Positions 24,971-47,951 of a stretch of 64,000 nucleotides of DNA are shown here, in pieces. A model generated the notes under the pieces. The model made no database searches. It was not told the origin of the DNA and saw only the letters and a list, made by a program, of their open reading frames with translations. The position numbers were made by a program, and so were the translations under genes. Position 1 is the stretch's first letter; every line of letters starts with the position of its first letter. Source of the stretch: Hoyosella altamirensis (lineage in GTDB: Bacteria; Actinomycetota; Actinomycetes; Mycobacteriales; Mycobacteriaceae). The DNA is taken from NCBI RefSeq assembly GCF_014191505.1, contig NZ_JACHWS010000002.1, positions 744,001 through 808,000 on the forward strand, in the 5' to 3' direction.

Positions 24971-25072
24971 AGCTGCGGTGATGGCTGCGCGCGCGGGGCG
25001 AGGCTCTGTTGCGCGGCCGGCGCGCGGCGTATTCTCAAGCGAGAGAAGTCCACGGAGCCGCCGGGGTACGAC

Positions 25073-25792: not shown

Positions 25793-25808
25793 CCACACTC
25801 TCCGTATC

Positions 25809-26705: not shown

Positions 26706-26902
26706 TCACACTCCTCTGCAGGCGATGAAATACCCGTTACGCATTGTCGGCGAAGTGCAGATGCGAACGCAACGCAGTAGTTGCCAAAGTAACTATCCTC
26801 ATCATCACCCCGCGCTACCAGTCCTGCCAGAAAACTACAATCTTGTTGCCGCTGGGCGTGTCCGAGCGGCGACCGGACACCCGACCGGGCACCATTACGG
26901 GC

Positions 26903-27652: not shown

Positions 27653-27670
27653 CCAGCACGTAAATCACTG

Positions 27671-27716
27671 CGGTCATGACCGTGCAGGCTCTGCGGATAC
27701 TGCTCGGTCATGACCG
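27671..27716. promoter_or_regulatory. Pair of identical 12-bp palindromes
   Basis: CGGTCATGACCG at 27671-27682 and again at 27705-27716, 34 bp centre to centre (a little over three helical turns). They lie 18 nt past the HTH gene stop. Two-site spacing suggests cooperative binding of a dimeric protein, the upstream HTH protein being the obvious candidate (inference). Confidence 0.55.
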
Positions 27717-27834
27717 CGGTCACCGGGCCAGTGAGTTCTTCCTCACATTCGACGACGGCGGCAGCACGACCGGCTTGCCAGTCCGCGAGGAGCCCTATTC
27801 GCAGTTCACGGCCGCTTTCCTGTGCGTGCACTGG

Positions 27835-27850
27835 TGTTCCACGTGAAACC
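27835..27850. promoter_or_regulatory. parS-like site (distant copy)
   Basis: TGTTCCACGTGAAACC. It matches the bacterial parS consensus TGTTNCACGTGAAACA at all but the last base. It lies about 27 kb from the parAB genes, in an intergenic region, and shares the CACGTGAAAC core with the three sites at 54.8-56.7 kb. Confidence 0.75.
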
Positions 27851-27943
27851 ACCCCCTGCTCCACCGGTGGCGCCGCTCCGCTACACTCAACGACAAGAAG
27901 GGGCCATGACGTCCCTTTCGCGTCGTAGACGACTTCCTCTCTC

Positions 27944-28007
27944 CCCGCGTTGAGCGCGGGTCGATGATTCTTAATACGGCGAACGGATGCGCAGCTGCGC
28001 GTTCGCC
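27944..28007 (+). promoter_or_regulatory. Structured leader upstream of the DEAD-box helicase gene
   Basis: Two hairpins lie in the long 5' region: CCCGCG-5 nt-CGCGGG at 27944-27960, and GGCGAACG-14 nt-CGTTCGCC at 27978-28007, whose loop holds the inner palindrome TGCGCAGCTGCG. Autoregulated leaders are common for cold-shock RNA helicases; here this is inference. Otherwise 27653-28081 (429 nt) holds only the palindrome pair and the parS-like site, and no gene. Confidence 0.35.
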
Positions 28008-28081
28008 ATTTCCGCTGACGGCAGGGACACAGTATTTACGCTGTGCCGGGCTGCCTTGAGCGCCAATGCCTGAAAGGCACC

Positions 28082-29416: not shown

Positions 29417-29844
29417 GCGAGATCCTCGGCTACAGCCCGCCTGATTGGCTCGGGAACCGCGACTGGCTTGCGCGTCGAACCATCCACATAGACGTGTACA
29501 AATCGGCCAGTCGCGGCGACCGTGAGGCCGTCGCTACTGTCACGGAAGATCGCGAGCCGGTACGTGATGCTGCGACTCCCGAGCCGCTCGCAAGCTATTC
29601 CTACCTGTATCTGCTCTGGGAACGACAGTTCAGCGTGGTACCTGCATGACGTTTCGGCCACGACCCCTATTGCTGATAGGGACCGGATATCGACACCGGT
29701 CGCCTGTATCAGCCACGCGTTCACCGCAGTGTCGAAAAACGAGTAGTAGACAACGTTGTTGACGTGCCCGTAGTGGTCGTTATCCGCCCAGCGCGTCGCT
29801 ATTGGCCACAGCACGGGGAATTCTGCCGCAACTGGGAGTGTCAC
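29413..29844 (-). CDS. Acyl-CoA thioesterase (4HBT hot-dog fold)
   Basis: 143 residues from GTG. Hot-dog fold with the 4-hydroxybenzoyl-CoA thioesterase motif WADNDHYGHVNNVVYYSFFDTAVNAWL, in which the first Asp is catalytic (second DHYGHVNN Asp/His region). It hydrolyses acyl-CoA thioesters. It is coupled to the upstream alcohol dehydrogenase by a GTGA overlap, so the pair may work in degradation of an alcohol or aldehyde to an acid (inference). Confidence 0.88.
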   Translation of the reverse strand: MTLPVAAEFPVLWPIATRWADNDHYGHVNNVVYYSFFDTAVNAWLIQATGVDIRSLSAIGVVAETSCRYHAELSFPEQIQVGIACERLGSRSITYRLAIFRDSSDGLTVAATGRFVHVYVDGSTRKPVAVPEPIRRAVAEDLA

Positions 29845-30983
29845 TCCGTCTCCTGTGTCTGGGGAAGAAGGATCTGCCGTACTGCTGTGCCTTCGGCAAG
29901 TCGATCCATCGCCCTATTCACCGCGCTCAACGGATACGTTCCGTCCACCAGCTTCTCGACGGGCAGAAAGCCCTGCCGCCACCACGCGATCATCCTGGGA
30001 ATGTCACGCTGCGGCTGGCAGGAGCCCATGTATGAGCCGATGAAACTCTTCGCATCAGCGACGAAAGCTACAGCTGGAAGCGTCAATTGCGCGTCCGGCG
30101 CAGGCAGCCCAACCGAGACAACCGCGCCGCCACGTCCGACCAGCGAAAAAGCTTGTTCCATCGCCGGGACGACGCCCGCCGCTTCGATCGCCCATCTCGT
30201 CCCATCCCTTGTCAGGCTGCCAATAAGGCTAGCGGCATCGCGCGGATGGCACGCGTGGGTAGCGCCAAGTTCAACCGCCAATTGCCGCTTCGATTCCACT
30301 GGGTCGATCGCGACGATCGGGGTGGCTCCCGCGAGTACCGCGCCCAGTACGGCAGCAAGTCCTACGCCTCCAAGGCCGATCACGCATACGCTTTCACCCG
30401 GCTGCACTTCGGCTGTGTTGAGAACAGCTCCTGCCCCGGTGAGCATGGCGCAGCCGAACACCGCGGCGATCTCGAAAGGGACATCATCATCGATGACAAC
30501 CGCGGACGAATGATGCACGACCGCATACTCACTGAAAGCTGAAACACCAAGATGGTGGTTGATACGCTGCCCGCCCACAGTTAAACGGTGATGACCGCCC
30601 AGCAGAGCACCTTCTCGGTTGCTCTGTCCTCCTGGAATACAGAGCGTCGTTCTCCCCGCAGCGCAATTCACACAGGTTCCGCAATGCGGCATGAAAGCAA
30701 GCACCACGTGATCACCGGGGCGGATACCCGGAACGTCGGGCCCCACTTCCACGACGCGCCCCGCAGCCTCGTGGCCAATGGCCATAGGCATGGGCCGGGG
30801 TCGCTGGCCCGTGAGAACTGACAGATCTGAATGGCAGACACCGGCCGCCTCGATCTGCACTAGCACCTCGCCCTGACCCGGCGAATCGACGTCCACGTCG
30901 AGAATCTGCAGTGGTGCGGTTTCCGCGAAAGGACGCGACTGTCCCATGTTCGACAGAACCGCAGAGCGTGATTTCACAGCCAC
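29841..30983 (-). CDS. Zinc-dependent alcohol dehydrogenase (MDR superfamily)
   Basis: 380 residues from GTG. Catalytic-zinc ligands in AAGVCHSDLSV and GHEAAG. Structural zinc Cys cluster CGTCVNCAAGRTTLC. Rossmann motif VIGLGGVGLAAV. It resembles mycobacterial AdhD/class III-type NAD enzymes acting on primary alcohols or aldehydes. It is the first gene of a two-gene unit with the thioesterase (4-nt overlap). Confidence 0.9.
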   Translation of the reverse strand: MAVKSRSAVLSNMGQSRPFAETAPLQILDVDVDSPGQGEVLVQIEAAGVCHSDLSVLTGQRPRPMPMAIGHEAAGRVVEVGPDVPGIRPGDHVVLAFMPHCGTCVNCAAGRTTLCIPGGQSNREGALLGGHHRLTVGGQRINHHLGVSAFSEYAVVHHSSAVVIDDDVPFEIAAVFGCAMLTGAGAVLNTAEVQPGESVCVIGLGGVGLAAVLGAVLAGATPIVAIDPVESKRQLAVELGATHACHPRDAASLIGSLTRDGTRWAIEAAGVVPAMEQAFSLVGRGGAVVSVGLPAPDAQLTLPAVAFVADAKSFIGSYMGSCQPQRDIPRMIAWWRQGFLPVEKLVDGTYPLSAVNRAMDRLAEGTAVRQILLPQTQETE

Positions 30984-31069
30984 CCCCAGCGACGATCATT
31001 TCTCGCTATCGTTGCATATCGTCACGTCACCGGTTCAGTTACACCTACGACTAGGGCCGCGTTGTTGAA

Positions 31070-31666
31070 CTAGTTGTCACCGACGTGACCCCGAATCTGG
31101 GCCGCGCTTGAACTCTGTCTCTGACGGTAGGAGCGCATCTTGGCTCTGGAACCACACATGTCCATGTCACACCAACTACCCGACCGATTCTTAGAACGGT
31201 CGTAGAAAGCCCATCCGCAGTCCTTGTTGGCACATACTTTCAGCCGTTCCCAGATCCCAGCGTGTACCGCCCATACGGCACCAGCCACCAATCGCTCCTC
31301 GAAGCCCTTGAGGTTAGCTGAACGCGGGGCCAGCTGAGGCTGGCCTGCCGATGAGAATGAGACGTGCAGCGGCACCCGGTCAAGAATGCGGTTGAGCTCC
31401 GCAATAGCGGACTCCATTTGTGGAGCCGTTCCCCTGGTGTGTGCGACCAAGATCGTCCGCAAAGTCTCGCGGAGCCTCAACAAGCGTTCAAGCTCCTCAG
31501 GTTCGAGGGCCGCATCTGCAAGCCCATAGCCCAGTTCATCGAGCCACTCAGCAAAGCTCCTCGAACTGGCAAGGTGATCCACATTCCGCATCAAGCTCCG
31601 GGTGTTCACGAACCGCTGTAGCAGCCTCAGAGGCTCGGGCGCTGGTTTCAGATCGTCAGGCTTCAA
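31070..31666 (-). CDS. CGNR zinc-finger (ABATE domain) transcriptional regulator
   Basis: 198 residues from TTG (GAGAGAAG just upstream). The N-terminal ABATE region (FVNTRSL...DHLASSRSFAEWLDELG) is followed by the C-terminal CGNR zinc finger VCANKDCGWAFYDRSKNRSGSWCDMDMCGSRAKMRS..., with four Cys and the CGxR signature (residues about 155-185). The family represses divergent transporter or enzyme genes. The divergent MFS gene is its likely target, with the dyad at 31730 between them. Confidence 0.9.
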   Translation of the reverse strand: MKPDDLKPAPEPLRLLQRFVNTRSLMRNVDHLASSRSFAEWLDELGYGLADAALEPEELERLLRLRETLRTILVAHTRGTAPQMESAIAELNRILDRVPLHVSFSSAGQPQLAPRSANLKGFEERLVAGAVWAVHAGIWERLKVCANKDCGWAFYDRSKNRSGSWCDMDMCGSRAKMRSYRQRQSSSAAQIRGHVGDN

Positions 31667-31729
31667 TCGGGCTTCTCTCGTCTACGACTCACGCATCTCC
31701 CTATAGATTACCGTCTAACCGCATTGACC

Positions 31730-31742
31730 GGTAACCGTTACC
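31730..31742. promoter_or_regulatory. Operator-like palindrome between CGNR regulator and MFS gene
   Basis: GGTAACCGTTACC is a perfect 6-1-6 dyad. Related half-sites TTACC and GTAAC recur close by (ATTACCG at 31708-31714 region and TTTACCAGTAAC near 31755). Located in the 184-nt divergent promoter, it is a good candidate site for the CGNR regulator. Confidence 0.55.
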
Positions 31743-31859
31743 AACGTACGATTTTTACCAGTAACAGCGAAGCAGCACGCTGACCCCGCGTGATGTGGAC
31801 ACGACGAAGGAAGCCCCGCCTAGCTGGGCGGGCACGCATAGACCCTGAAAGTGGAAACG

Positions 31860-33110
31860 ATGATGACGGACAAGACCTGGCAGCTGGGCCTCGCTGGGAT
31901 GGGGATGATTGCGGTCGCGTTCGGGTTCGCTCGCTATGGCTACGGCCTGTTCGTCCCCGTCTTTCGCGACGAGTTTGGGTTGTCGACCGGATCACTAGGG
32001 CTCATATCTGGCGGTTCTTACGCCAGTTACTTGATCGCCCTACTCCTAGCTGGCTTCCTCTCCTCCCGTCTCAACCCTCGATTCCCCATAGTCTTGGCGG
32101 GGCTATTCGCAACGACCGGGATGATTCTTATTGCCGCGGCTCCGAATTCCGTGGTGCTGGCGGCAGGGGTTCTGATCGCAAGCACCAGCCCGGGCTGGGC
32201 ATGGGCGCCTTTCTCTGATGCAGTAGCTCAACTCATCAAGCCAGGGGCTCGGAACCGCACGCTTTCGATCGTCAGTACCGGCACCGCGTTCGGTCTCCTA
32301 GTGTCTGGACCGATCACACTGTTCGCCGGCTCCACGTGGCGAGTCGCCTGGCTGTTGTTCGCACTAGTCGCGCTCGCATGCACTATATGGAACGCCAGGA
32401 TACTGCCGAACAAGCCTTTCAAACCTTCCTCCGGCGCAGAGAGTCAACGAGGTGCGCGTGGCGCCAACGTTGCCCTCGATAGGTCCCGACCGACTTGGCG
32501 CTGGTATGTCAACACTCGCTCGTTACCGCTGTTCCTCGTGGCTTTGATATTCGGGTTCACCGGTGCCTTCTACTGGACATATGCAGCCGATATCGTATTG
32601 GACAATGGCTTGCCACCAGCCACACGATCGATTCTATGGACACTCGTGGGCATAACTGGCGTTGCAGGTCTAGCGACTGGAGACCTCGTCGGACGCTTCG
32701 GTCTGCGAAGAGTGCTGGTGGCAGCGCTTCTTTTGCTCACTGTGGCGATCGCGTTACTCGGATTATCACCAGGGTCTTGGCTCGCAATCGGTATCTCGGC
32801 GTCGCTGTACGGGCCGAGCTTCATGATGATGTCCGCTCTGCTGGCACTATGGAGTTCTGATGTTTTTCCCGACCGCCCCTCCGCCGGATTCAGCGCGACC
32901 CTCTTGCTGCTAGCAGTGGGTTCGATCGGTGGCCCGACGACGCTAGGGCTAATTGCAGATCTCGCCGGTCTTCGCTCGCTCTTCCTTGTCGCTGCCGGAC
33001 TCACGCTGATCGGTCTCATCGGGGCGATTCCCAGACGGTGGAGCGCGGCGGCGATGTCCGCATCTGGAGACGAGAAAACCCTGACCCGTCTTAACGCGAG
33101 GCAGGGTTGA
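31860..33110 (+). CDS. MFS transporter
   Basis: About 416 residues; possible starts are GTG 31851 and ATG 31860 or 31863, without a decisive ribosome site. Twelve hydrophobic helices, with the helix 1 signature FGFARYGYGLFVPVFRDEFGLS and a central hydrophilic loop (FKPSSGAESQRGARGANVALDRSRP). It fits the CynX/YfiS-like MFS group of small-molecule exporters or permeases. The substrate is unknown. Divergent from the CGNR regulator, which probably controls it. The 3' end abuts the degraded region at 33.1 kb. Confidence 0.88.
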   Translation: MMTDKTWQLGLAGMGMIAVAFGFARYGYGLFVPVFRDEFGLSTGSLGLISGGSYASYLIALLLAGFLSSRLNPRFPIVLAGLFATTGMILIAAAPNSVVLAAGVLIASTSPGWAWAPFSDAVAQLIKPGARNRTLSIVSTGTAFGLLVSGPITLFAGSTWRVAWLLFALVALACTIWNARILPNKPFKPSSGAESQRGARGANVALDRSRPTWRWYVNTRSLPLFLVALIFGFTGAFYWTYAADIVLDNGLPPATRSILWTLVGITGVAGLATGDLVGRFGLRRVLVAALLLLTVAIALLGLSPGSWLAIGISASLYGPSFMMMSALLALWSSDVFPDRPSAGFSATLLLLAVGSIGGPTTLGLIADLAGLRSLFLVAAGLTLIGLIGAIPRRWSAAAMSASGDEKTLTRLNARQG

Positions 33111-33538
33111 ACGTCGTAATTGTGGACGAGGGCGTTGATCGCCCAGTTCTCGCCATCTTGCGCGAGGATTGCCTGGGATCGCTCCGTCTTCAACTCTTCG
33201 ATTCTCTGCTTGGCGGTGGCCTTCTTGAGTAGATCACCGTGCCGACCCTTGACAGCTGAGAAGAAGGAAGAGAGGTCGTAGTTGTTGTCGGCACGGAAAA
33301 CGACCTGACCTTGGATGCTCGCAGCGATATCAGCCAGCGAGAACTCCAGATCGCGCCGTGAGCTTGCTGTCGCTGTAGCTGATGTCTCGGCGTCCAGCAA
33401 TGCGTTCGGTGACATCGTGCGGTGACCCGGAACGGTGCATCGAACTGGAGAGCATGAGCATCGGCGAGCGAGGTGGCTGTGAGAAGCCCCAGGCCAGTCG
33501 AGGCACCAGTGATCAAGACGCGCCATCGTCGTGTTGCC
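33111..33538 (-). pseudogene. Degraded region with SDR fragments and an unidentified gene fragment
   Basis: No intact gene. On the minus strand a short-chain dehydrogenase N-terminus can be read next to 33538 (RVLITGASTGLGLLTATSL), followed after a gap and in another frame by SYSDSKL, like the catalytic Tyr-x-x-x-Lys segment. Further on is an open stretch about 33110-33370, FRADNNYDLSSFFSAVKG followed by TERSQAILAQDGENWAINAL, which looks like the C-terminal part of a real protein but was not recognised. It has no stop before running antisense into the MFS gene, so it was truncated at that junction. Confidence 0.55.
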
Positions 33539-34072
33539 TCAGTCGGCCTGTTCGATGGTCACGGAACGCGAGCCGCTCCAGCCGGTGAGGATCGAGACGT
33601 CGCCGTCCATCTGCCCGATGCGCACGATGCCGTTGTAGTGGCCCACGTTCGTGTAGTAGAGAACGATCACCCCGCCGGGGGCGTACCAGCCGATCGTTCC
33701 AGCTGGGGCGCTCTCGCCCGAGGGCATCCCCTCCATCGTTAAGGGCTGAGGTGGGGTCGCGAGCACTTCCTGTCCGCCGTAGTCGGAGAAGTCAAGGGTG
33801 AGCGGAAGCTGGTCGATCAGTGACTGCGCGGCGGGGTTGTTCCACAGTTTTGCGTCGAGCGTCTGATCGCCAATGACGATGCGAATCGGGATCTCGGTCA
33901 CGGCTTCTCCTGACGGTTCCGGGGCGGTCTCAGTGGGTGTCGCGGCGTCGGTGGTAGCGGTCAACTCGGGCTCGGGCTCGATTGAGCTGCAAGCCGTGAG
34001 CATCATGCAGGCTGCGAGTGCGAGCGCAGCCGTGCGTCGAGCAGTTGTCGATTCGTTCAGTGGCCTACCCAT
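33539..34072 (-). CDS. Lipoprotein with cyclophilin-like fold domain (copy A)
   Basis: 177 residues from ATG. Signal peptide with lipobox LTAC (Cys about residue 28), a Thr/Glu/Pro-rich linker, then a cyclophilin-like domain: IRIVIGDQTLDAKLWNNPAAQSLIDQLPLTLDFSDYGGQEVL, IGWYAPGGVIVLYY, GIVRIGQMDGDVSIL. The family is small beta-barrel proteins of unknown role, often secreted and often next to redox enzymes. It is the last of three coupled minus-strand genes (SDR, lipoprotein B, lipoprotein A). Confidence 0.82.
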   Translation of the reverse strand: MGRPLNESTTARRTAALALAACMMLTACSSIEPEPELTATTDAATPTETAPEPSGEAVTEIPIRIVIGDQTLDAKLWNNPAAQSLIDQLPLTLDFSDYGGQEVLATPPQPLTMEGMPSGESAPAGTIGWYAPGGVIVLYYTNVGHYNGIVRIGQMDGDVSILTGWSGSRSVTIEQAD

Positions 34073-34098
34073 GAAGCGGTTTATCCCTTTCGCCTAGA

Positions 34099-34299
34099 TC
34101 AGTCGGCTCGTTCGAGGGTGAGCGGAAGCTGCTCGACCTCACCCGCAGACTCCTCCACTTGTGGCACCACGGTTTCTGTCGGTGTGGGCGTGGGGGTCTC
34201 CTGTGGCGTGGGAGCGGAGGGGGCGCATGCCGTCAGGCCGCCGCACAGCAGCAAAAGTGCGAGAACCGAGGTTCGGCGAGCGCTCCCGTGCTTGCTCAT
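34099..34299 (-). CDS. Short lipoprotein, probably an internally deleted paralogue (copy B)
   Basis: 66 residues from ATG. Signal peptide with lipobox LTAC and a Pro/Thr linker, but the folded domain is absent. The end EVEQLPLTLERAD joins the DQLPLTL start of the cyclophilin-like domain directly to a TIEQAD-like C-terminus as in copy A. At DNA level GGGTGAGCGGAAGCT (34117-34131) matches the interior of copy A (about 33786-33800), while the last 20 nt match copy A's 3' end. This indicates loss of the whole domain. Its ATG overlaps the upstream SDR stop by 4 nt. Confidence 0.6.
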   Translation of the reverse strand: MSKHGSARRTSVLALLLLCGGLTACAPSAPTPQETPTPTPTETVVPQVEESAGEVEQLPLTLERAD

Positions 34300-34960
34300 G
34301 CTTGAGTTTCGCCCACGGTCACACGAAATGTGCCGGGTGTGGTGTGGAGCTGCCAGATGCGATCGGCCAGCGCTGCGGGGTCGTAGAGCGGATCGCCGCC
34401 ACCGATAGCACCAGGGATGATGAGCTGGCGTACGTTCACACCGCGCGGGGTCGCTGCGTCGTGGAGCATCGCACCGTATGCCGATTCGCCCGCGAACGCG
34501 GTCGAGGTGCCCGCGACATTGCCGTTCGGCCGGACGGCACTCGATCCGTTGACGAGGAGGATCGTGCCATTGCTGCGGCCGATCATGCCGGGCAACACCT
34601 GTCGGGTCGCGGTGGCCAGGCCGAGGATGGAGAGTTCAGTCGCGGCTTGGAGGTCCTCGACGGTGGTGTCAAGGACGGGCTTCAGGAACTCGCGCTCGGC
34701 ACCGGGCTGAACTGTAAGACCTCGATCGGGCCGAGGTCTGCTGCCGCGCTCTCTAGAGCCGTGTCCAGAGCGGTCCGGTCGCGCACATCGGCCACGTAGC
34801 CTCTCGCCGTGATGCCGTTGGCGGCGAGCTGCTGCTCCAGTGCTTCGAGCTTGGCGGGGTTGCGGGCGATGAGCGCGACAGTGAAGCCTTCGCGTCCGAA
34901 CTTGTGTGCGACTGCGGCTCCGAGCCCGGATCCGGCTCCGACGACAGCTATGACTGGCAT
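34296..34960 (-). pseudogene. Short-chain dehydrogenase with a single-base frameshift
   Basis: ATG at 34960 gives MPVIAVVGAGSGLGAAVAHK, an SDR with its NAD(P) motif GxGSGLG, which runs to LGPIEVLQFSPVPS and then stops. The next frame carries on as REFLKPVLDTTVEDLQAATELS to the normal C-terminus at 34296. One missing C in CCGAGC-GCGAG (about 34700) explains the break (PVPSREFLK restored). Catalytic Ser-Tyr-Lys region is atypical (NGSSAVRPNG, SAYGAMLHDAA). Together with the two lipoproteins downstream it was a coupled operon. Confidence 0.8.
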
Positions 34961-35041
34961 GCTTCCACGGTAGAGCCGTCATCGCCGGGGAGGGAGTCCC
35001 TGACAGTGCCTCCCACATTGCGCGCGCATCGTGTTCACTCG

Positions 35042-35587
35042 ATGAGTAGAGAAGTCACTGGCACAGAGGAACCTCATCTTGACAGCACGCCGACGAGTAC
35101 GCGATACCTTGGCAGTCATCAGGCACTTCTGGTTGGGGCAGGACTCACCGCTTGCAGCGGAACTCCCACGGATAGCAGTGCTCCGGTAGAAAGCCCGACC
35201 GAAGACGCGGGCGCCAGCGATGAAACCACGTCGACTGCACCCGATGAAGCTGCGGGAACGATTGTGCGCTTCACCGCTGGAGACGTTGTTGTCGAGGCGG
35301 TCATCGTGGAAGAAAACCCCACGACACGCTCGTTTATCGCCATGCTTCCGATGACGCTCACGTTCTCCGACTTCGGCGGCAAAGAGAAGGTCGCCTCGCT
35401 GACCGGCGACTTCGACTACACCGACGCGGAAGGGCTGAACCCGAGAGCGGGAGACCTGTTCTCCTACATGCCGTGGGGGAACATCGGCACCTTCTACAAG
35501 ACCGAGGGCAACACCTCCTCGAACTCATTGACCAAGATCGGCGAGACCGACGACATCCACCAGATCGAACTGCTCGACGGTCAATAG
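35042..35587 (+). CDS. Cyclophilin-like lipoprotein (copy C), signal peptide probably frameshifted
   Basis: The domain is intact: IVRFTAGDVVVEAVIVEENP, LPMTLTFSDFGGKEKVASL, LFSYMPWGNIGTFYK and SLTKIGETDDIHQIELLDG. The lipobox LVGAGLTACSG is present, but the frame from ATG 35042 has an acidic, uncharged-poor n-region (MSREVTGTEEPHLDST). A TTG at 35079 with GAGGAA upstream gives the expected basic n-region (TARRRVRDTLAV) in another frame, and one or two lost bases near 35112 would join the two. So export may be lost in this copy. It is divergent from the minus-strand SDR and heads the ADH-SDR-RibD set. Confidence 0.65.
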   Translation: MSREVTGTEEPHLDSTPTSTRYLGSHQALLVGAGLTACSGTPTDSSAPVESPTEDAGASDETTSTAPDEAAGTIVRFTAGDVVVEAVIVEENPTTRSFIAMLPMTLTFSDFGGKEKVASLTGDFDYTDAEGLNPRAGDLFSYMPWGNIGTFYKTEGNTSSNSLTKIGETDDIHQIELLDGQ

Positions 35588-35623
35588 GTCACCATCGCCG
35601 ACTAACCCAAGGAGCACCACCTG

Positions 35624-36667
35624 ATGCGAACCGTGAAAGCCATTGGAGCCGTCAATGCCACCGACCCGCTCGTTCCTCTGACGATCGAGCGCCGCGAGGT
35701 CGGCCCACACGATGTACTGATCGACATCGACTACGCCGGGATCTGCCACTCCGATATCCACACGATCCGTGGCGACTGGGGGCCGATCACCTACCCGCAG
35801 GTCGTCGGGCACGAGATCGTCGGCCGCGTCGCACAGATCGGCAGAGAAGTCACCAAGCACCAGGTCGGTGACGTCGTGGGTGTCGGCTGCCAGTCGAACT
35901 CGTGCCGCACCTGCGCGCAGTGCGAGCAGGGTCACGACCAGTACTGCCTGAATGGCAACACCCAGACCTACAACGGCATCGACCCCGCCGACGGCACGAT
36001 CACCCAAGGCGGCTACTCGCAGGCGGTCGTGACGAACGAAGACTTCGTGCTCGCGATCCCCGCAGGTCTCGACCCCGACAAGACCGCGCCCCTGCTGTGC
36101 GCGGGCATCACCACCTACTCCCCGCTGAAGCACTGGAACGCCGGCCCCGGCACGCGCGTCGGTGTCGTCGGTATGGGCGGACTCGGACACATGGGCGTGA
36201 AACTCGCCGCTGCCCTTGGTGCGGACGTGACCGTGCTCTCACGCGGCACCAACAAGCGCGACGACGCGCTCGCTTTCGGTGCGACCCGCTACGTCGACAC
36301 CACCAACGCCGCCGCTATGGGAGAGATAGCCGGGAGCCTTGACCTCATCATCAACACCGTGGCGGCGGGCCTCGACATCACCACCTACCTCGGCCTGCTC
36401 AACGTAGATGGGGCACTGGTGAATGTCGGCGCACCCGCTGAGCCGTTCTCCGTTCCAGCGTTCTCTCTGATCCCTCGCCGCCGTACCCTCGCAGGCTCCA
36501 CCACGGGTGGCATCGCCGAGATTCAGGAAATGCTCGACTTCTGCGCCGAGTTGGGCATTCACCCCGAGACCGAACTGGTCAGCGCCGAAGAGGTCAACGA
36601 CGCCTGGGAGCGCGTGCTTTCCGCCGATGTGCGCTACCGCTTCGTCATCGACACCCACACCCTCTAA
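35624..36667 (+). CDS. NADP-type zinc alcohol/aldehyde dehydrogenase (YahK/CAD-like)
   Basis: 347 residues with AAGGAG upstream. Zinc ligands in YAGICHSDIHTIRGDWGP and GHEIVG, structural Cys set CRTCAQCEQGHDQYC, Rossmann motif GVVGMGGLGHMGVKLAAALG. It matches the cinnamyl-alcohol dehydrogenase-like family that reduces a broad range of aldehydes with NADPH. Intact, unlike several neighbours. It is followed after 13 nt by an SDR gene with its own AAGGAG site. Confidence 0.92.
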   Translation: MRTVKAIGAVNATDPLVPLTIERREVGPHDVLIDIDYAGICHSDIHTIRGDWGPITYPQVVGHEIVGRVAQIGREVTKHQVGDVVGVGCQSNSCRTCAQCEQGHDQYCLNGNTQTYNGIDPADGTITQGGYSQAVVTNEDFVLAIPAGLDPDKTAPLLCAGITTYSPLKHWNAGPGTRVGVVGMGGLGHMGVKLAAALGADVTVLSRGTNKRDDALAFGATRYVDTTNAAAMGEIAGSLDLIINTVAAGLDITTYLGLLNVDGALVNVGAPAEPFSVPAFSLIPRRRTLAGSTTGGIAEIQEMLDFCAELGIHPETELVSAEEVNDAWERVLSADVRYRFVIDTHTL

Positions 36668-36680
36668 GGAGCAACCTGAC

Positions 36681-37448
36681 ATGTCAGAGGTCACCTACGA
36701 TTTCACAGGAAAGACCGCGTTCGTCACCGGCGCGAGTTCCGGCATGGGTCTGGCCGCCGCCCAGGCTTTCGCCGAGGCAGGCGCGGCTGTTGCGCTCGTG
36801 GACATCAACCAGGAACAGGTCGAGAACGCCGCCGCCGAACTCACCGGACGAGGGCTGAAAGCGCTCGCCATTCAGTGCGATGTCACCGACGAGAACCAGG
36901 TGGCAGCCGCTGTCGCCCGCACCGTCGAGGCTTTCGGCAGCCTGGACATGGCCTTCAACAATGCCGGGATCATGCTCCCGCCGGTCGACTCCGCCGACGA
37001 GACTGCCGAGGCTTTCGACACCATCGTCGCGGTCAACTTGCGCGGTGTGTGGGCCGCGACAAAGCACGAGTTGAAGCAGATGCGCGCACAGGGCTCCGGG
37101 GCGATCGTCAACTGCTCCTCGTTGGGAGGGCTCGTGGGCGGTGACGGGCGCGCCACCTACCACGCCACGAAGCACGGCATCATCGGGCAGACCAAGAGCA
37201 TCGCCCTCCAGTATGGCCCGCTCGGCATCCGCGTCAACGCCGTCTGTCCCGGCACGATCGACACGCCGATGGTTGCGCAGATGGCCGCCCGAGGGGAACT
37301 CGACCGCGAGGCAGCAGCCGCACGGGAGCCGCTACGCCGCTTGGGCCGTCCCGAGGAGATCGCCGCCGCCGTCCTGTGGCTGTGCAGCGACGGCGCAAGC
37401 TACGTCACCGGCGTCGCTCTGCCCGTCGACGGAGGCCACGTCGCCTGA
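36681..37448 (+). CDS. SDR family oxidoreductase
   Basis: 255 residues from ATG 36681 (CTAAGGAGCAACCTGAC upstream). Classical SDR: TGASSGMG cofactor site, D in VALVDIN (suggesting NAD preference), NNAG, catalytic Ser in VNCSSLGG, YHATKHG (Tyr-Lys) and the C-terminal YVTGVALPVDGGHVA. Closest in type to 3-oxoacyl-ACP reductase or glucose 1-dehydrogenase-like enzymes; the substrate is not predictable. Intact. Its stop overlaps the next ATG (TGATG). Confidence 0.92.
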   Translation: MSEVTYDFTGKTAFVTGASSGMGLAAAQAFAEAGAAVALVDINQEQVENAAAELTGRGLKALAIQCDVTDENQVAAAVARTVEAFGSLDMAFNNAGIMLPPVDSADETAEAFDTIVAVNLRGVWAATKHELKQMRAQGSGAIVNCSSLGGLVGGDGRATYHATKHGIIGQTKSIALQYGPLGIRVNAVCPGTIDTPMVAQMAARGELDREAAAAREPLRRLGRPEEIAAAVLWLCSDGASYVTGVALPVDGGHVA

Positions 37449-37915
37449 TGAGACCGTACGTCATTGTCCACACGCACACGTCGATCGACGGCAATCTCAA
37501 CGGCAAGACCTCGACCGAAGACAACATCACGCACTACGGCACCCCCGCTATCGATGAGAGCGCCACGGTTCCGGCTGGCGACTATGTCGCAGAGCCGGAG
37601 GCTGAGATGTACTACGTCTCCATCGACCCGCGTGGAGAACTCGCCTGGCAGCAGAAGCTGCACGGCCTCGGCGTCGAGCGTTTGATGGTCGGCGGCGGCG
37701 GGATCATCAACTGGTCGTTCTTGCAGCAGGGACTCGTCGACGAGGTGAGCATGGTGCTCGCACCTGTCGCGAACGCCGAGCCTGACGCGCCACGGTTCTT
37801 CACCGCCAAAGAGCCGTACTCGACCATCGATCTCACCGAGTTCACGATCACGAGCATCGAAGACCTGGGCGACAGCGTGGTGTGGCTGCGCTACACCCCG
37901 AACGCACAAGCGTAG
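37448..37915 (+). CDS. RibD C-terminal/dihydrofolate reductase-like protein, internally shortened
   Basis: 155 residues. MRPYVIVHTHTSIDGN is a RibD-C/DHFR-like N-terminus, and ERLMVGGGGIINWSFLQQGLVDEVSMVLAPV is its C-terminal NADPH-fold part. Family members are usually near 220 residues. The section between WQ and QKLHGLGVERL (residues about 66-70) is too short, and the jump after SIDGN to LNGKTSTEDNITHYG also looks contracted. Two in-frame deletions would explain this, so activity is doubtful. It is coupled to the upstream SDR. Confidence 0.7.
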   Translation: MRPYVIVHTHTSIDGNLNGKTSTEDNITHYGTPAIDESATVPAGDYVAEPEAEMYYVSIDPRGELAWQQKLHGLGVERLMVGGGGIINWSFLQQGLVDEVSMVLAPVANAEPDAPRFFTAKEPYSTIDLTEFTITSIEDLGDSVVWLRYTPNAQA

Positions 37916-37960
37916 CCCTGCACCTCAGAACACGAACGGAACGGAACGACCCCACCGCAT

Positions 37961-38616
37961 ATGACTGAACTGACCCGAAGAAGTTTCCTTCTGGCCGGTG
38001 TCGTGCTCGGCGTCGGAACCCTCGCCGCGTGCACGAGTCCGGAGCCGACGGACCACCTCTACACCGGCACCGACCGCCCCCGCGCCCACCGATACGAACG
38101 GGAACGGTCTGACGCCACAGGGTGACCTGTACGGGGTGGGCATCTACAACACCCAGGAAGTCGCCGACGAACTTGCCTACATCGAGGCCAATATCGAGCC
38201 GCTCACTGGCGGCGACACGAAGCGAGTCCTGATCACCGGGTCGACCGGCGGCATCGGGCAGCTCGCCGCCGCGTACTTCCTCCGCCAGGGGCACGGAGTC
38301 ATCGCGCACGCCCGCAACGAGCAACGTGCCGCTGATGTTCGCCGTGATCTGCCCGGGGCTGGAAGACGTAGTGATCGGCGATCTCCTCGACCTCGACCAG
38401 ACCCGGGCGCTGGCTGAGCAGATCAACGCGCTCGGCGAGTTCGACATCATCATCCACAACGCAGGCGAGTATGGACTCACGGACTCGGAGATCCTGAACG
38501 CGAACTCCCTGTCCCAGTACTGGACGGTGTTCGGAGTCGTGATCCTCGCGGCCATCGGCGGCGGAATCCTCTACGTCCGCCGTCGCACCAGACAGGACGG
38601 AGCCGACGATGCCTGA
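37961..38616 (+). pseudogene. Chimeric wreck: lipoprotein, SDR and membrane tail in three frames
   Basis: Starts MTELTRRSFLLAGVVLGVG with lipobox LAAC. After CTSPEPT one extra base (about 38052) moves the frame to TSTPAPTAPAPTDTNG and on to LYGVGIYNTQEVADELAYIE, then straight into an SDR N-terminus, KRVLITGSTGGIGQLAAAYF. A further extra G in a GGGG run (about 38357) shifts to LEDVVIGDLLDLDQTRALAE...IIHNAG. The end, YWTVFGVVILAAIGGGILYVRRR, is a membrane anchor foreign to an SDR. At least two indels and two fusion points are visible. From 38609 a 40-codon frame (MPDWLDALLRW...) overlaps the end; 38617-38804 otherwise holds nothing recognisable. Confidence 0.7.
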
Positions 38617-38804
38617 CTGGCTCGATGCGCTGCTGCGCTGGCTACAGGCAACGCCGCGCGGTTTCGCCGAGACGACCAGCGAGGGCAAGTGTCGCGCGCG
38701 ACATTCGTTTGTCGGCTGGAGATCCGTGTAGCGGCGGCCGTGTCGTTGACGATAATAAGCCGGAGAGGGCTCCAACTGGCGACCGAGTGATGTGGCCTGA
38801 ACGT

Positions 38805-39698
38805 CTACGAGCTAGTGTTCGTGTTGCTCGTCTCGGATGGTACGGAACCGTATTCGCTCGCGGCCCAACAAGCGAGCAGTTGCATACGCTCCTCCGAGGG
38901 CGTGCCTGGCTCGGGCGTGTAAATCGTGAGGGTCAGACCCCGCTCTGATTCCATCTCCATCCCTTCGTAGGCGAGGGTCATCTCGCCGACGACGGAGTGC
39001 TTGAAGGTCTTGAATCCGGTGCCGTGGTGCCGGACATCGTGAGCGCCCCACAGGCGACGGAACTCTTCGCTGCGAGTGCTGAGTTCGCCGATCAGGTCGT
39101 GCAGTTCCTTGTTGCGCGGGTCGCGGCCGGCCTCGGTACGCAGGATCGACGTGGTGATCTCGGCGAACGAGTCCCAGTCAGGGTAGAACTCGAACGCACG
39201 CTCGTCGAGGAACGTGAAGCGAGCCAGGTTCGGTGCACAACCGGGCATGTCATAGGTGTCGTTGTAGAACGCACGTCCCAGCGTGTTGCAGGCCAACAGA
39301 TCCATGCGTCCGTTCCGCACGAACGCTGGGCCAGCGGTGACTGCTGCGAGCGTCCATTGCAGGCTCTGATGTGGTGTCCAACTCTTCGGGTTGCGTCGTC
39401 GAGGCGGGCGAGCGACCGGGCTCGCGGCATGGGCCAAGCTGAACAGGTGGGCGCGCTCGGCGTCGTCCAAGCGGAGAGCCTTGGCGATACTGTCGAGGAC
39501 TTCCGGAGAGGCCCCGCTGATCCCACCGCGTTCGATCCGCGTGTAGTACTCCACGCTCACGCCCGCGAGCGCTGCGACCTCACTGCGGCGCAGACCCTCG
39601 ACGCGTCGGTTTGTGCCCGCCGGTAGTCCAACCTCATCCGGCGTCACGCGGGCGCGGCGGGTGGTGAGGAAGTCCCGCACTTCGGCTCGGTTGTCCAT
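38805..39698 (-). CDS. XRE-family regulator with MmyB-like ligand-binding domain
   Basis: 297 residues from ATG. N-terminal HTH (about 20-80: LRRSEVAALAGVSVEYYTRIERG) followed by the MmyB-like PAS-related domain (SLQWTLAAVTAGPAFVRNGRMDLLACNTLGRAF..., FDERAFEFYPDW near the middle). Such regulators commonly repress an adjacent short-chain dehydrogenase or reductase gene and respond to small hydrophobic ligands. It is intact and probably controlled the island's dehydrogenases. Confidence 0.92.
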   Translation of the reverse strand: MDNRAEVRDFLTTRRARVTPDEVGLPAGTNRRVEGLRRSEVAALAGVSVEYYTRIERGGISGASPEVLDSIAKALRLDDAERAHLFSLAHAASPVARPPRRRNPKSWTPHQSLQWTLAAVTAGPAFVRNGRMDLLACNTLGRAFYNDTYDMPGCAPNLARFTFLDERAFEFYPDWDSFAEITTSILRTEAGRDPRNKELHDLIGELSTRSEEFRRLWGAHDVRHHGTGFKTFKHSVVGEMTLAYEGMEMESERGLTLTIYTPEPGTPSEERMQLLACWAASEYGSVPSETSNTNTSS

Positions 39699-39732
39699 AC
39701 CTCAACCTTACGACGGAGCCCACCGATCAAGG

Positions 39733-40454
39733 ATGCCCCGACGGTACCCCCATCTCGACTCACGCAAGAAGGCATCCGAACGGCGAAACACCCACGACCA
39801 CTACCTGAAAGGCTCGCTGTTCTGCGGGTCGTGCGGGTCGCGGATGCAGCTGGGCCCGGCCAACCGGCAGGGCGTCCGCTACGCCTACTACGTCTGCTCC
39901 GGCCGCGCATCGAAGCGGAAGAAGTGCACCCGCCGCGCGGTGCAGGTCGAGGCGGCGTTCGATGAGCGCCGTTCTTCGCGCTCGGACGAGCTGGCTGAGC
40001 TGACCGCGAACCGGCAGCGGCTCCAGAACGAGAGCGACAAGATTCTTGCTGCGCACTTCGCCGACGCGATCGACTTGGAGACCCTCAAGCGGCACCAAGA
40101 CCGTATCCGCACCGGCCTGGCCGATATCGACCGCAAGCTCGCCACCGAGCATGACCACCACGAGGGATCACGCAAGCTACTGAGCACCGCGTTCAGCCTC
40201 CTGGTCGACTGCGCGAACCTCTACGCCCGCACGAACCTCTACGCCCGCACGAACCTCTACGCCCGCACGAACCTCTACGCCCGCACGAACGACCAGGCAA
40301 GCGGTTGGCCAACCAAGCACTGACCAACGGCATCGACATCAGCGAAGACGAAAGGGCGACGATCCGACTCACTGAGCCGTTCGCCGCCCTCGTACCCGAA
40401 CCAACATCTTCCGATGTCAGCGGTTCTAGTACGTTCGATCTGGGTGGAGCCTAG
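39733..40454 (+). pseudogene. C-terminal remnant of a large serine recombinase
   Basis: The resolvase catalytic domain is absent. What remains is THDHYLKGSLFCGSCGSRMQ with the recombinase zinc ribbon (CGSCG...YYVCSGRASKRKKC), a coiled coil (DELAELTANRQRLQNESDKI) and the C-terminal region. After DCANLYART the sequence repeats four times (18-bp unit), then one lost G in a GGG run (about 40297) breaks the frame; the next frame resumes GKRLANQALTNGIDISEDERATIR and continues to 40454, into the 3' end of tRNA-Ala. Left end about 39733 is approximate. Truncated, frameshifted and certainly inactive. Confidence 0.85.
40216..40287 (+). repeat. Four perfect tandem copies of an 18-bp unit
   Basis: AACCTCTACGCCCGCACG repeated at 40216, 40234, 40252 and 40270, encoding NLYART four times in frame. 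Normal recombinases have a single copy here, so this is a recent slippage expansion in a dead gene. Confidence 0.95.
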
Positions 40455-40517
40455 GGGAATCGAACCCCTAACCCCCGCCTTGCAAAGGCGGTGCTCTACC
40501 AATTGAGCTAAGGCCCC
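40445..40517 (-). tRNA. tRNA-Ala (anticodon TGC)
   Basis: 73 nt. Acceptor GGGGCCT with AGGCTCC (one G-U pair), D arm TAGCTCAATTGGTAGAGC, anticodon loop TTTGCAA, T arm GGGTTCGATTCCC. CCA is not encoded. It lies in the gyrA-tRNA-Ile-tRNA-Ala order typical of the phylum and forms the right edge of the island. Confidence 0.96.
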
Positions 40518-40522
40518 TCGTA

Positions 40523-40666
40523 CTAGCTCCCAGCAGTCCCCTCGAAGGGCAGGGTGTGCCAGGTTTCGGCCGCGTACTCACCCTCACGGGATTTGATGAG
40601 TTTAATGACACCAAGTCCCACAGCGATTCCGATTCCAGCCGCGGTAAGGATCTTGATAATTCGCAT
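40523..40666 (-). CDS. 47-residue single-span membrane protein between two tRNA genes
   Basis: ATG at 40666 gives MRIIKILTAAGIGIAVGLG, a hydrophobic span, then VIKLIKSREGEYAAETWHTLPFEGTAGS and a stop at 40523. Small membrane proteins (DLW-39 type) sit at this place beside tRNA-Ala/gyrA in Mycobacteriales; the final acidic/aromatic part here is similar in layout but not clearly the same motif. The ribosome site is weak. Function unknown. Confidence 0.6.
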   Translation of the reverse strand: MRIIKILTAAGIGIAVGLGVIKLIKSREGEYAAETWHTLPFEGTAGS

Positions 40667-40685
40667 ATCGAGAACCTTACCGGAG

Positions 40686-40759
40686 TGGGCCTAGGAGGAC
40701 TTGAACCTCCGACCTCTTCCTTATCAGGGAAGCGCTCTAACCGCCTGAGCTATAGGCCC
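40686..40759 (-). tRNA. tRNA-Ile (anticodon GAT)
   Basis: 74 nt. Acceptor GGGCCTA with TAGGCCC, D arm TAGCTCAGGCGGTTAGAGC, anticodon loop CTGATAA giving GAT, T arm GGAGGTTCAAGTCCTCC. CCA not encoded. Confidence 0.97.
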
Positions 40760-40846
40760 GTGAACCGAGAAGCGAGACTACCCTACTGCGGACCAAAGTA
40801 CCAAAACCGCAGTTCACGTCTCGCTTCACGGAAAGTGTGCTGACCC

Positions 40847-41359
40847 CTAGTCACGGTCAGCGAGCGTGACTTCGATCCCTCCGACGAGGTCCGATGCCAA
40901 GTTGTAGATGAATGATGCAAGGGTCAGCAGGGCGGTGAAAAGAATCATATTGATGAAGCCAATTGCCGCTGTCCAGCCAAAGATCTGGCCGGCGCTGATT
41001 ATCTCTCCCGCAGCCCCTTCATCCACGATCTCCAGGAAGGCACTGTTGAGCCGGTCCCACACATTCATGAACTCGAGGACCAGGTACAGCGTCCCCACGG
41101 CGATCATCCACACAAGGAAAAGCGCCGCGGAAATGATTGCGGAGATTTTCAGTGCCGACCAAGGATCGATTTCGCGGATCTGAACGGCCGCTCTCAGTCC
41201 CGCCTGGGTAGGTTTCGCCGTGACAGTCACAGGCGGTCGGCGTCGAGGAGGAGCCGCAGCGGACGACTTGCCCTTGTCCGCTGCGGACGTCGTTTGTGCG
41301 GCACCTTTTGAACTGGCGCTTTCAGTGGTGCTGTCGGTCGTATTGTCTGAGGCTGCCAC
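40847..41359 (-). CDS. DUF3566 membrane protein
   Basis: 170 residues from GTG directly after the gyrA TAA stop. A low-complexity Ser/Thr/Ala N-terminus (about 1-50) precedes the DUF3566 domain with VQIREIDPWSALKISAIISA, two membrane helices (about 68-93 and 128-155) and EVTLADRD at the end. The family is found immediately after gyrA across Actinobacteria; its role is unknown, possibly at the membrane-origin interface (speculation). Confidence 0.92.
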   Translation of the reverse strand: MAASDNTTDSTTESASSKGAAQTTSAADKGKSSAAAPPRRRPPVTVTAKPTQAGLRAAVQIREIDPWSALKISAIISAALFLVWMIAVGTLYLVLEFMNVWDRLNSAFLEIVDEGAAGEIISAGQIFGWTAAIGFINMILFTALLTLASFIYNLASDLVGGIEVTLADRD

Positions 41360-43858
41360 TTAGGACTCCTCTGGTGCGTCGGGTTCTTCGGGCTCATCCG
41401 CATTACGAGCGATGGCGAGAAGATTGTCACCCTCGCCCAGGTTCATCAAACGCACACCCTTGGTTTGGCGGCCAGCCTTGCGAACCTGGCTGGCGGCTGT
41501 GCGGATGATGCCACCACCGGAGGTTATCGCATAGAGCTCATCCTTCATGTCAACGATAATCGCACCCACCAACGTGCCACGACGTGCGTCAAACTGGATC
41601 GTCAGCACGCCCTTGCCGCCGCGGTTCTGGACTGGGTATTCGTCGAGCGGAGTTCGCTTCGCGTACCCGCCGGATGTGGCGACGAGGAGGAACATGGTTT
41701 CTTGCACGACGTTCAGTGACAGCAGCTCGTCATCAGTGTTGAACCGCATGCCCTGCACGCCCGATGTTGCCCGGCCCATCGGGCGTAACGCCTCGTCTGT
41801 CGCCGCGAACCTGATCGCTTGTCCCTTACCCGAAACAAGAATCAGATCATCATCCGAGGAGCAGAGGACCGCACCGACCAGCTCGTCATTCTCACGCAGG
41901 TTGATCGCGACGATTCCGCCGCTGCGATTGGAATCGAAGTCCTCGAGACGAGATTTCTTCACCAATCCGTTCCGGGTCGCGAGTACAAGGTATGGCGCAT
42001 CCTGGTAGCCCTTGATCGCAATGATCTGGGCGATTTTCTCGCCAGGCTGGAAAGCCAGCAGGTTCGCGACATGCTGGCCGCGCGCGGTACGGCTCATCTC
42101 CGGCAGCTCGTACGCCTTGACACGGTAGACCCGGCCCTTCGTTGTGAAGAACAGAATCCAATCGTGGGTCGAGGTCACGAAGAAATGCCGCACCATGTCG
42201 TCCTGCTTCAGGCCGGCACCTTGCACCCCCTTACCACCCCGACGCTGAGCCCGGTAAAGGTCAGTCTTCGTACGTTTTGCGTAGCCCGTTTCAGTGATGG
42301 TCACCACAACGTCTTCGCGAGCGATCAGGTCCTCATCAGCGACGTCACCCTCGCCCTGGATGATTCTCGTACGGCGCTCGTCGCCATACTTTTCGACGAT
42401 CTCGGAGAGCTCATCATGGACAATCTGCCGCTGTCGCTCAGGCCGCGCCAGAATGTCTTTGAGGTCCTCGATCTCCCGCTCGATCTCGGCGAGCTCATCG
42501 ACGATCTTCTGCCGCTCAAGCGCAGCGAGACGCCGGAGCTGCATAGCAAGAATTGCGTCTGCCTGAATCTCATCGACATCTAGTAGCTCCATCAGCCCGG
42601 TGCGGGCGATGTCTACCGTCTGTGAACGACGGATCAGAGCGATGACCTCATCCAGAGCATCGAGAGCTTTGACGAGACCGCGCAAGATGTGAGCGCGTTC
42701 CTCGGCTTGCTTGAGCCGGAATTTAGTACGGCGGATAATCACATCGAGCTGATGGGCGACATACAGGCGGATCATCTGATCAAGCCGCAGCGTACGCGGC
42801 ACACCATCGACGATCGAAAGCATATTCACGCCGAAGCTGTTCTGCAGCTGTGTGTGCTTATAAAGGTTGTTCAGCACGACCTTGGCAACCGCGTCACGCT
42901 TCACCGTCACCACGATGCGCATACCGATACGATCCGACGACTCATCCTGAATCTCGGAGATCCCGGTCAGTTTCTGGTCGCGTACCTGCTCCGCGATCGA
43001 CGTGATCAAGTTATCAGGGTTCACCTGATAGGGGAGTTCTTTGATGACGATCTGGGTGCGCCCGCGGTTATCTTCTTCGATCTCCGTGACACCCCGCATA
43101 CGGATCGAGCCACGCCCGGTGGAGTAGGCCTCCGAGATGCCATCTGAACCCACGATCAGGCCGGATGTCGGGAAGTCCGGGCCCTTGATGCGCTCGCACA
43201 TTGCGATGAGGGTCGTTTCCTCATCGGCCTCGTAGTTCTCGAGGCACCAGAAGATCGCGGCAGCGACCTCACGCAGGTTATGAGGAGGGATATTCGTCGC
43301 CATACCGACGGCGATGCCGCCGGAACCGTTGATGAGCAGGTTTGGAATACGGCTGGGCAGGACCGTTGGTTCCTGCGTTTTACCGTCATAGTTCGGCGCG
43401 AAGTCGACCGTGTCTTCCCGGATGTCACGCAGCATCTCCATGGCAAGCGGAGTCAGGCGCGCCTCGGTGTACCTCATCGCGGCTGGTGGATCGTTGCCGG
43501 GTGACCCGAAGTTACCCTGGCCGTCAATCAGCGGATACCGCATCGACCAGGGCTGAGCGAGACGCACCATGGTGTCGTAAATCGACGTATCGCCGTGGGG
43601 GTGGTAGTTACCCATCACCTCACCAACGACGCGCGACGACTTCACATAGCCGCGGTCTGGCCGGAACCCTGCATCGAACATCGCGTAGAGAACACGGCGA
43701 TGAACCGGCTTCAAGCCGTCGCGGACCTCGGGAAGTGCCCGACCTACGATCACGCTCATCGCGTAGTCGATGTAGCTACGCTGCATCTCCTGCTGAATGT
43801 CAACAGGTTCGATGCGGTCGCCGGGAGTCTCCTCCGGCGGCAACGTGGTGTCGGTCAT
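41360..43858 (-). CDS. gyrA: DNA gyrase subunit A
   Basis: 832 residues from ATG 43858 with AGGAG upstream; a GTG-type extension to 43906 is not conserved. Winged-helix breakage-reunion domain with the fluoroquinolone region [19 protein letters not shown] and catalytic Tyr near residue 129 ([10 protein letters not shown]). C-terminal beta-pinwheel with six blade repeats and the GyrA box QRGGKGV. Introduces negative supercoils together with GyrB. No intein is present. Position 90-equivalent in the QRDR reads Ser-Ile-Tyr-Asp-Thr (wild-type-looking). Confidence 0.98.
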
Positions 43859-44004
43859 GTGCTCCTTCTTCTCTTCTTCGCCCCAGGCCTCGAACCCGGT
43901 ACCCAACTGAAGACCCTATGCACTGAGTTCAGCCTATCCGCGCAGGTCAAATCATTGGGCAAGTGACTCGCCACTGAACTTGTGATCGTCCCATTCTTTC
44001 GACG

Positions 44005-46062
<2,058 letters not shown>

Positions 46063-46206
46063 CTACTGAATCAGTACCGCCCCGTTAACGGGCCGGGAGT
46101 GGCGGATGATCAATTCGCTATCTTAGTCGCTCGCCGCCCCACACTCTCGGTCCTGTGCTGATACGGCGTGCTGTGCGTCGATACGGTGCCGATTTCGTAG
46201 CCCACG

Positions 46207-47944: not shown

Positions 47945-47951
47945 CAGCCAA

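Follow-up and report, generated by a model that had tools for sequence, protein, structure and literature searches.

The region described here lies in a 64,000-nucleotide stretch of the Hoyosella altamirensis genome (contig NZ_JACHWS010000002.1, positions 744,001 to 808,000; hereafter, the window) and consists of a 7.3-kb island, extending from 33111/33113 to about 40442, which is flanked by an MFS gene, with its stop at 33110, and by a tRNA-Ala(TGC) gene on the minus strand (40443-40517). The original prediction, made from the letters alone, had placed in this interval cyclophilin-like lipoproteins, short-chain dehydrogenases (SDRs), a zinc dehydrogenase, a RibD-C reductase, an MmyB-type regulator and a serine-recombinase remnant, a gene content that is borne out by domain matches and by the tRNA call. 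In the following, the island is considered as the probable remains of an integrative conjugative element.

Starting from the MFS gene, the left end of the island is occupied by a C-terminal fragment of an SMC/RecN-like AAA ATPase (33113-33358, minus strand; 76% amino-acid and 74% nucleotide identity to L213:4338-6788 of Gulosibacter chungangensis). It is followed on the same strand by an SDR stub, apparently one gene in two pieces (33360-33516), assigned by an N-terminal motif seen by eye and by a weak match of 33482-33360 to the SDR3 protein of Microbacterium pullorum (E 6e-4), and by cyc1, which encodes an intact cyclophilin-like lipoprotein (33539-34072; PF18050, E 3e-31; 60% amino-acid identity to the relatives at L155 and L215). 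The minus strand then continues with cyc', a lipoprotein leader joined to cyc-like last codons from which the domain is gone (34099-34299), and with SDR1 (34296-34960), in which comparison with relatives places a frameshift near 34690-34718. A divergent promoter region, containing a predicted MmyB operator (34984-35016, minus strand), separates SDR1 from a plus-strand group made up of cyc2, a second cyclophilin-like lipoprotein gene that ends at an early stop and whose signal peptide is probably shifted (35075-35587, start approximate; PF18050, E 3e-22 for the frame 34904-35587), an intact zinc-dependent Ahr-like aldehyde/alcohol dehydrogenase gene, ADH (35624-36667; 94% amino-acid identity to G. 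chungangensis), the intact SDR2 (36681-37448; PF13561, E 1e-68), a RibD_C-family reductase gene (37448-37915), lip3, a lipoprotein start after which the frame is lost (37961-38125), and fragments of SDR3 (38223-38520). Both cyc' and lip3 were recognized by frame reading only. The best NCBIfam match of ADH is NF047908, at 318 bits and under the 470 cut-off of that family. The PF18050 (Cyclophil_like2) domain is found in the whole genome only in the products of cyc1 and cyc2; lipobox leaders ending in LTAC were recognized by eye.

The right part of the island carries an intact regulator gene of the MmyB/MltR type (38805-39698, minus strand; 76-82% amino-acid identity to the relatives at L004, L006 and L156), whose product combines a helix-turn-helix domain (PF13560) with the MLTR_LBD domain (PF17765, E 2e-54). 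A second predicted operator precedes it (39722-39754, minus strand) and ends where homology to a large serine recombinase (LSR) begins. The LSR remnant corresponds to the C-terminal half of the protein (39754-40442, plus strand; PF13408, E 4e-10; 56% over 279 columns to the LSR at L189) and contains 4.3 copies of an 18-bp tandem repeat (40214-40290), an array absent from both aligned recombinase relatives (L189 and L192). Finally, the element arm of the right attachment site spans 40401-40445 on the plus strand, and the tRNA-Ala gene represents the target site.

Homology to mobile elements is observed at both ends of the island. On the right, the recombinase remnant is 74-91% identical in nucleotide sequence to LSR genes of four genomes, namely G383, G061 (G. 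chungangensis), G182 and G439, and PHROGs assigns it to an integrase family, with no match there for the left end. The right arm is conserved in an alignment of the window with the LSR/tRNA junctions of 11 relatives; in particular, its first 34 nucleotides are identical in the window and in the G383 element, the window having one additional base closer to the tRNA. On the left, homology is to the C-terminal portion of an ATPase gene of G. chungangensis (G061 C1:702338-704788, 74% nucleotide identity) in the corresponding orientation. This gene is located about 53 kb from the LSR of that genome and about 4 kb beyond a TrwC relaxase gene, and the SMC-like ATPase is accompanied there by CBASS-type E1-E2, JAB and NucC genes (L213:1130-6788), at a distance of about 50 kb from the recombinase at tRNA-Ala. 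Five LSR regions (G383, G061, G182, G439 and G397) were read further, and three of them, those of G061, G182 and G439, have a gene backbone in common, located inward of the LSR. In G061 this backbone encodes a TraG/VirD4-type coupling protein, an M23 peptidase and a Prim-Pol protein; among the seven proteins scanned first, three were without Pfam match and one gave weak helicase matches only, and four further proteins comprised three without Pfam match and one DUF6112 protein. The TrwC relaxase, found at 694-698 kb of G061 (1188 amino acids, of which 1180 were scanned; E 4e-83), is 88% identical in G439, so that the element reaches at least to this position in G061, a finding that strengthens the reading of the region as an element. 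The G. chungangensis relative has an LSR, a coupling protein and a TrwC relaxase. A corresponding set of integrase, coupling protein, relaxase and transfer genes was not seen in the island of the window.

The genes between the two ends look like an MmyB-type regulon, with DNA-binding predicted from a conserved motif. Among the upstream regions of 41 distinct MmyB relatives, 28 have their best match to a consensus, GGTACTGNCAGGGNCTCCC, starting 50-52 nucleotides ahead of the start codon; matches with at most four mismatches occur anywhere in 23 of the 41 upstreams, versus 0.6% of shuffled upstreams, bearing in mind that the consensus was picked by eye from six upstreams and from the two promoters of the window and is not, therefore, blind. 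A matrix built from 26 of these sites, none of them from the window, was then run over the whole 64 kb. The two top-scoring sites are those mentioned above, at 34984-35016 (25.3 bits) and 39722-39754 (21.6 bits), each 23 nucleotides from its start codon (SDR1 and MmyB, respectively), followed by a next non-overlapping site at 8.7 bits; the maxima of 20 block-shuffled windows range from 7.7 to 18.6 bits. Moreover, when 80 named ADH loci (1.53 Mb) were scanned at a threshold of at least 18 bits, 27 sites emerged, compared with an average of 0.33 in three shuffles. Sixteen of these lie within 260 nucleotides of an ADH start, two of them being shared with MmyB, five belong to MmyB alone, one to SDR1 and five fall elsewhere. 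Seven of the 80 loci had contributed a site to the matrix, and such training sites make up five of the 27 hits; among the 16 ADH sites, 15 had no part in the matrix. Two of the five sites located elsewhere are found in M. pullorum (L004:12311 and 15115), near genes for carboxymuconolactone decarboxylase (CMD) and FMN oxidoreductase.

Relatives of the cargo families cluster in four genomes (M. pullorum, G399, G029 and G014). In M. pullorum, a cyc-MmyB-MFS group faces an SDR1-ADH-SDR3 group, and in G399, which belongs to the genus of G. chungangensis, genes for a cyc lipoprotein, MmyB and RibD_C are adjacent, while elsewhere in the same genome MmyB stands beside SDR1. The proposal that the intact original was a divergent system under MmyB-type control is thus supported in kind by the M. 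pullorum arrangement and by the operator predicted in the divergent promoter of the window. Secretion of the cyclophilin-like proteins, also proposed originally, is not general, as the M. pullorum protein has no evident leader. A literature search returned no report joining three among cyclophilin-like protein, lipoprotein, MmyB and short-chain dehydrogenase.

Taken together, these observations make it quite likely that the island is the relic of an integrative conjugative element, in which an LSR inserted at tRNA-Ala, the transfer genes were lost and an MmyB-type redox cargo was left. The link to serine-recombinase conjugative elements had been missed by the original prediction, which is extended here by the conjugative-element origin, by a family of tRNA-targeting recombinases and by the predicted MmyB sites. 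Specifically, an LSR would have integrated the element at the 3' end of the tRNA-Ala gene beside gyrA, and the transfer genes and most of the recombinase would then have been lost, leaving behind the C-terminal half of the recombinase at the tRNA, the ATPase fragment by the MFS gene and the redox cargo between them; we infer both the chemistry of integration and the order of these events from the sequence. The MmyB protein is predicted to bind its own promoter and the divergent SDR1/cyc2-ADH promoter, and would control NAD(P)H-dependent reductases together with cyclophilin-like lipoproteins, in response to a signal that is probably lipophilic or electrophilic. The element itself can no longer be mobile. 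Since MmyB, ADH, SDR2, cyc1 and both predicted sites are intact, the reduced system may still work.

A number of observations weigh against this interpretation. The backbone common to G061, G182 and G439 was not found in the region of G383, which has the nearest LSR, nor in that of G397, and the ATPase is present in G061 only, no copy having been found in the four other LSR regions. Cargo queries in the five regions, with cyc relatives used as cyc queries, returned only a weak SDR2 match in G397; no genome was found that has the window cargo inside such an element, and the ADH of G. chungangensis lies about 390 kb from its LSR. A left attachment site was sought in the window and in G. chungangensis and was not found. 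Moreover, precise excision could account for the empty site of the sister genome described below, and with a single carrier genome selection after arrival is not measurable. Finally, a site preceding ADH is lacking in 64 of the 80 ADH loci, which makes the link between motif and ADH frequent and not universal.

As regards the left attachment site, it has apparently been deleted in the window. Two candidates were rejected. The GTGGA pentamer, present at both junctions and considered as the left attachment core, is already spanned by the homology to the Gulosibacter ATPase, and an inverted-arm site in L213, with two mismatches, resembles by eye the L193 site on both of its sides. Nor was the end of the element defined by a search of the genus with sequence lying past the Gulosibacter ATPase.

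The alternative that survives best, although we regard it as doubtful, is that of a composite hot spot, in which cargo and recombinase remnant arrived separately beside tRNA-Ala. The position of the cargo relatives outside LSR elements in the regions read would fit such a history, as would the fact that MmyB meets the LSR remnant at a deletion junction. On the other hand, both outermost pieces of the island, the ATPase fragment and the LSR, match one and the same G. chungangensis element, with matching orientation, and bracket the cargo.

Evidence for acquisition comes from comparison with relatives. The sister genome G002, of the same genus, is 92-95% identical to the window over the matched stretches and presents an empty site: window segments 24993-33118 and 40444-51515 lie next to each other in G002, and 14 nucleotides separate the stop codon of the MFS gene from the GTGGA at the end of tRNA-Ala. 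The tRNA-Ala gene is identical to that of G002 at 74 of 75 positions, the sole difference being the outermost base, 40443. The check for an empty site that the original prediction had suggested has thus given a positive answer, and the locus combines two features of genomic islands, an empty site in a close relative and a tRNA at one end. Searches for the island in three relatives returned one trivial match in G002 (E 7e-4), only trivial matches in G022 (best E 1.5e-4) and no match in G001; in G001 and G022 the tRNA is bordered by different sequence, and similarity to the window ends before the MFS gene. At window positions 24970-24993, G002 carries about 3.2 kb of additional sequence.

The composition of the island also differs from its surroundings: its GC content (64.2%) is a little higher than that of the left (62.0%) and right (58.7%) flanks, and the GC content at third codon positions (GC3) of the four intact genes, 0.78-0.84, exceeds that of all 43 flank open reading frames (ORFs) of at least 150 amino acids (mean 0.676, SD 0.049, maximum 0.767). 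The closest relatives found for the island genes belong to other families. The ADH shares with that of G. chungangensis the protein identity given above, with dN 0.034 and dS 0.402, values which speak for function over the shared history and not specifically since arrival. As for the host itself, its gyrA gives a DNA identity of only 67-69% to each of 16 named genomes compared. Plasmid searches gave gene-level matches only, none reaching 80% of the query, or no match. It is unlikely that the island is an old resident locus lost by G002, G001 and G022, in the first case through precise excision. Serine recombinases are capable of excision too, and the 14-nucleotide spacer before the G002 tRNA faintly resembles, by eye, the element arm; nevertheless, the absence of the island from three relatives, the GC3 of its intact genes and the placement of their nearest relatives in other families stand against such a loss. 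For the conjugative-element relic, the empty site would date the arrival to the time since the split from G002.

Following its arrival or even before, the island has undergone extensive decay. At least five indels or deletions had been read originally. When lesions were called by tblastn of relatives' open frames against the window, damage emerged in seven genes, and frame reading adds two more (cyc' and lip3), leaving cyc1, ADH, SDR2 and MmyB intact. The SMC-like ATPase is cut down to residues 665-756 of 816 and has, in addition, a 10-residue gap. In cyc2, the stop falls a few codons short of the conserved end, at a position where the G. chungangensis stub reads through. The RibD_C protein measures 155 amino acids, compared with the 245 of its relative (L215:4131-4868), one gap of about 50 residues being evident in the alignment and a further loss close to the start being judged by eye, and SDR3 shows a frameshift and a truncation with respect to L004:11062-11802. 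The recombinase has lost its first 273-287 residues and shows a 28-residue internal gap, a frameshift and the tandem repeat; accordingly, the remnant keeps only the zinc ribbon and the downstream part, the Resolvase and Recombinase domains, which are present with the zinc ribbon in both intact LSR relatives scanned, being gone. As a flank control, 60 window ORFs of at least 100 amino acids were compared with the fetched G002 stretch: all 35 with a G002 counterpart align over more than 90% of their length with no stop, and of the remaining 25, 10 belong to the island, 14 lie past the point where the G002 contig stops and 1 falls in a local gap. The flanks are, in other words, undamaged where they can be compared, in keeping with the original prediction, and its preference for decay over sequencing error holds. 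Several lesions are small, and yet an intact cluster with frameshifts due to sequencing or assembly error is extremely improbable, as deletions span tens to hundreds of codons, which cannot be sequencing error, and none of the 35 comparable ORFs outside the island is damaged. As for recent acquisition followed by decay, the acquisition and the lesions stand, and decay may have either followed or preceded the arrival. In G. chungangensis, in fact, ADH lies between stubs of SDR1, cyc2 and SDR2; the same cassette has decayed differently there, so that decay may have begun before transfer.

The recombinase relatives were followed in a sample of 398 genomes of the Gulosibacter family, with at most three candidates scored per genome, and were found at E <= 1e-60 in 57 of them. 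Thirty recombinase loci (L242-L271) were examined. A tRNA gene abuts the LSR in 28 (Ala in 15, Arg in 8, Val in 2, His in 2 and Leu in 1), with no tRNA found at L246 or at L254, the latter a shorter locus; in an earlier, overlapping set, a tRNA was present at 11 of 12 LSR loci. All 28 LSR/tRNA pairs are convergent. The recombinase frame enters the antisense strand of the tRNA, with no stop within the element, in 27 of the 28 pairs, the stop falling inside the tRNA in 12 cases and beyond it in 15, and at L263 the frame stops 41 nucleotides short of the tRNA. The recombinase of the window is homologous to intact LSRs at the same type of site, and its own frame is interrupted upstream and out of register at the tRNA junction. 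We tentatively suggest that these recombinases form a family targeting the 3' end of tRNA genes and having no stop codon inside the element, such that integration would provide a new C-terminal tail encoded by the antisense strand of the host tRNA. The exchange of tails could conceivably act as a switch of activity between the integrated and excised states, and the island of the window might then be the fossil of such an element, which carried an MmyB operator regulon between actinobacterial families.

Partial precedents exist. Eight Mycobacterium actinomycete integrative conjugative elements (AICEs) have serine recombinases at tRNA-Leu, and serine-recombinase integration into tRNA genes is termed rare (Ghinet et al. 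2011, PMC3218068). These elements resemble those described here in the serine recombinase, in the conjugative character and in the tRNA target, and Prim-Pol occurs there too; in contrast, the Gulosibacter relative has a coupling protein of the type IV secretion system (T4SS) type and a TrwC relaxase, and the targets are here mostly tRNA-Ala and tRNA-Arg. Literature searches on such serine-recombinase elements found no paper, and those on integrase frames and antisense tRNA found one precedent, DsiB of Dehalococcoides, whose gene overlaps with its 3' end the attachment site at ssrA, the stop codon lying outside the element and antisense to the target RNA gene (McMurdie et al. 2011, PMC3146451). 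The recombinase frame runs likewise into the antisense target RNA gene, providing a precedent for the frames described above, and the authors of that study also asked whether the overlap matters; DsiB differs in the tmRNA target, the 20-bp repeat, the CcrB-like type, a second small recombinase and the occurrence in other bacteria. A further analogy is offered by the integration-dependent immunity of Mycobacterium abscessus prophages (PMC8092301), where the attachment site lies within a gene and integration alters the C-terminus of the protein, although the gene concerned there is the repressor and a tyrosine-type integrase is at work.

With regard to the cargo, MmyB genes have been reported beside SDR and medium-chain dehydrogenase/reductase (MDR) genes (Xu et al. 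2012, PMC3406030). The MmyB/MltR regulators of that study share with the present one the ligand-binding domain family and the SDR/MDR adjacency; the available text, searched for 'consensus' and 'GTAC', yielded no DNA motif, whereas a motif is predicted here and the cargo further includes cyclophilin-like lipoproteins and RibD_C. MsrR of Corynebacterium glutamicum (PMC7532634), an XRE regulator repressing both its own expression and a divergent gene, is alike in arrangement, and differs in its 240 amino acids, its divergent MFS gene and its sensing of oxidation.

In conclusion, these findings tie a decayed island to a specific route of transfer, that is, to serine-recombinase conjugative elements at tRNA genes. 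This combination was termed rare by Ghinet et al., yet 57 of 398 genomes have a relative of the recombinase and 28 of 30 loci lie at a tRNA. In addition, a testable DNA motif is supplied for MmyB-type regulators, and cyclophilin-like lipoproteins of unknown function are linked to a predicted reductase regulon. Finally, the question raised for DsiB by a recombinase frame that enters its target RNA gene becomes testable in many more elements.

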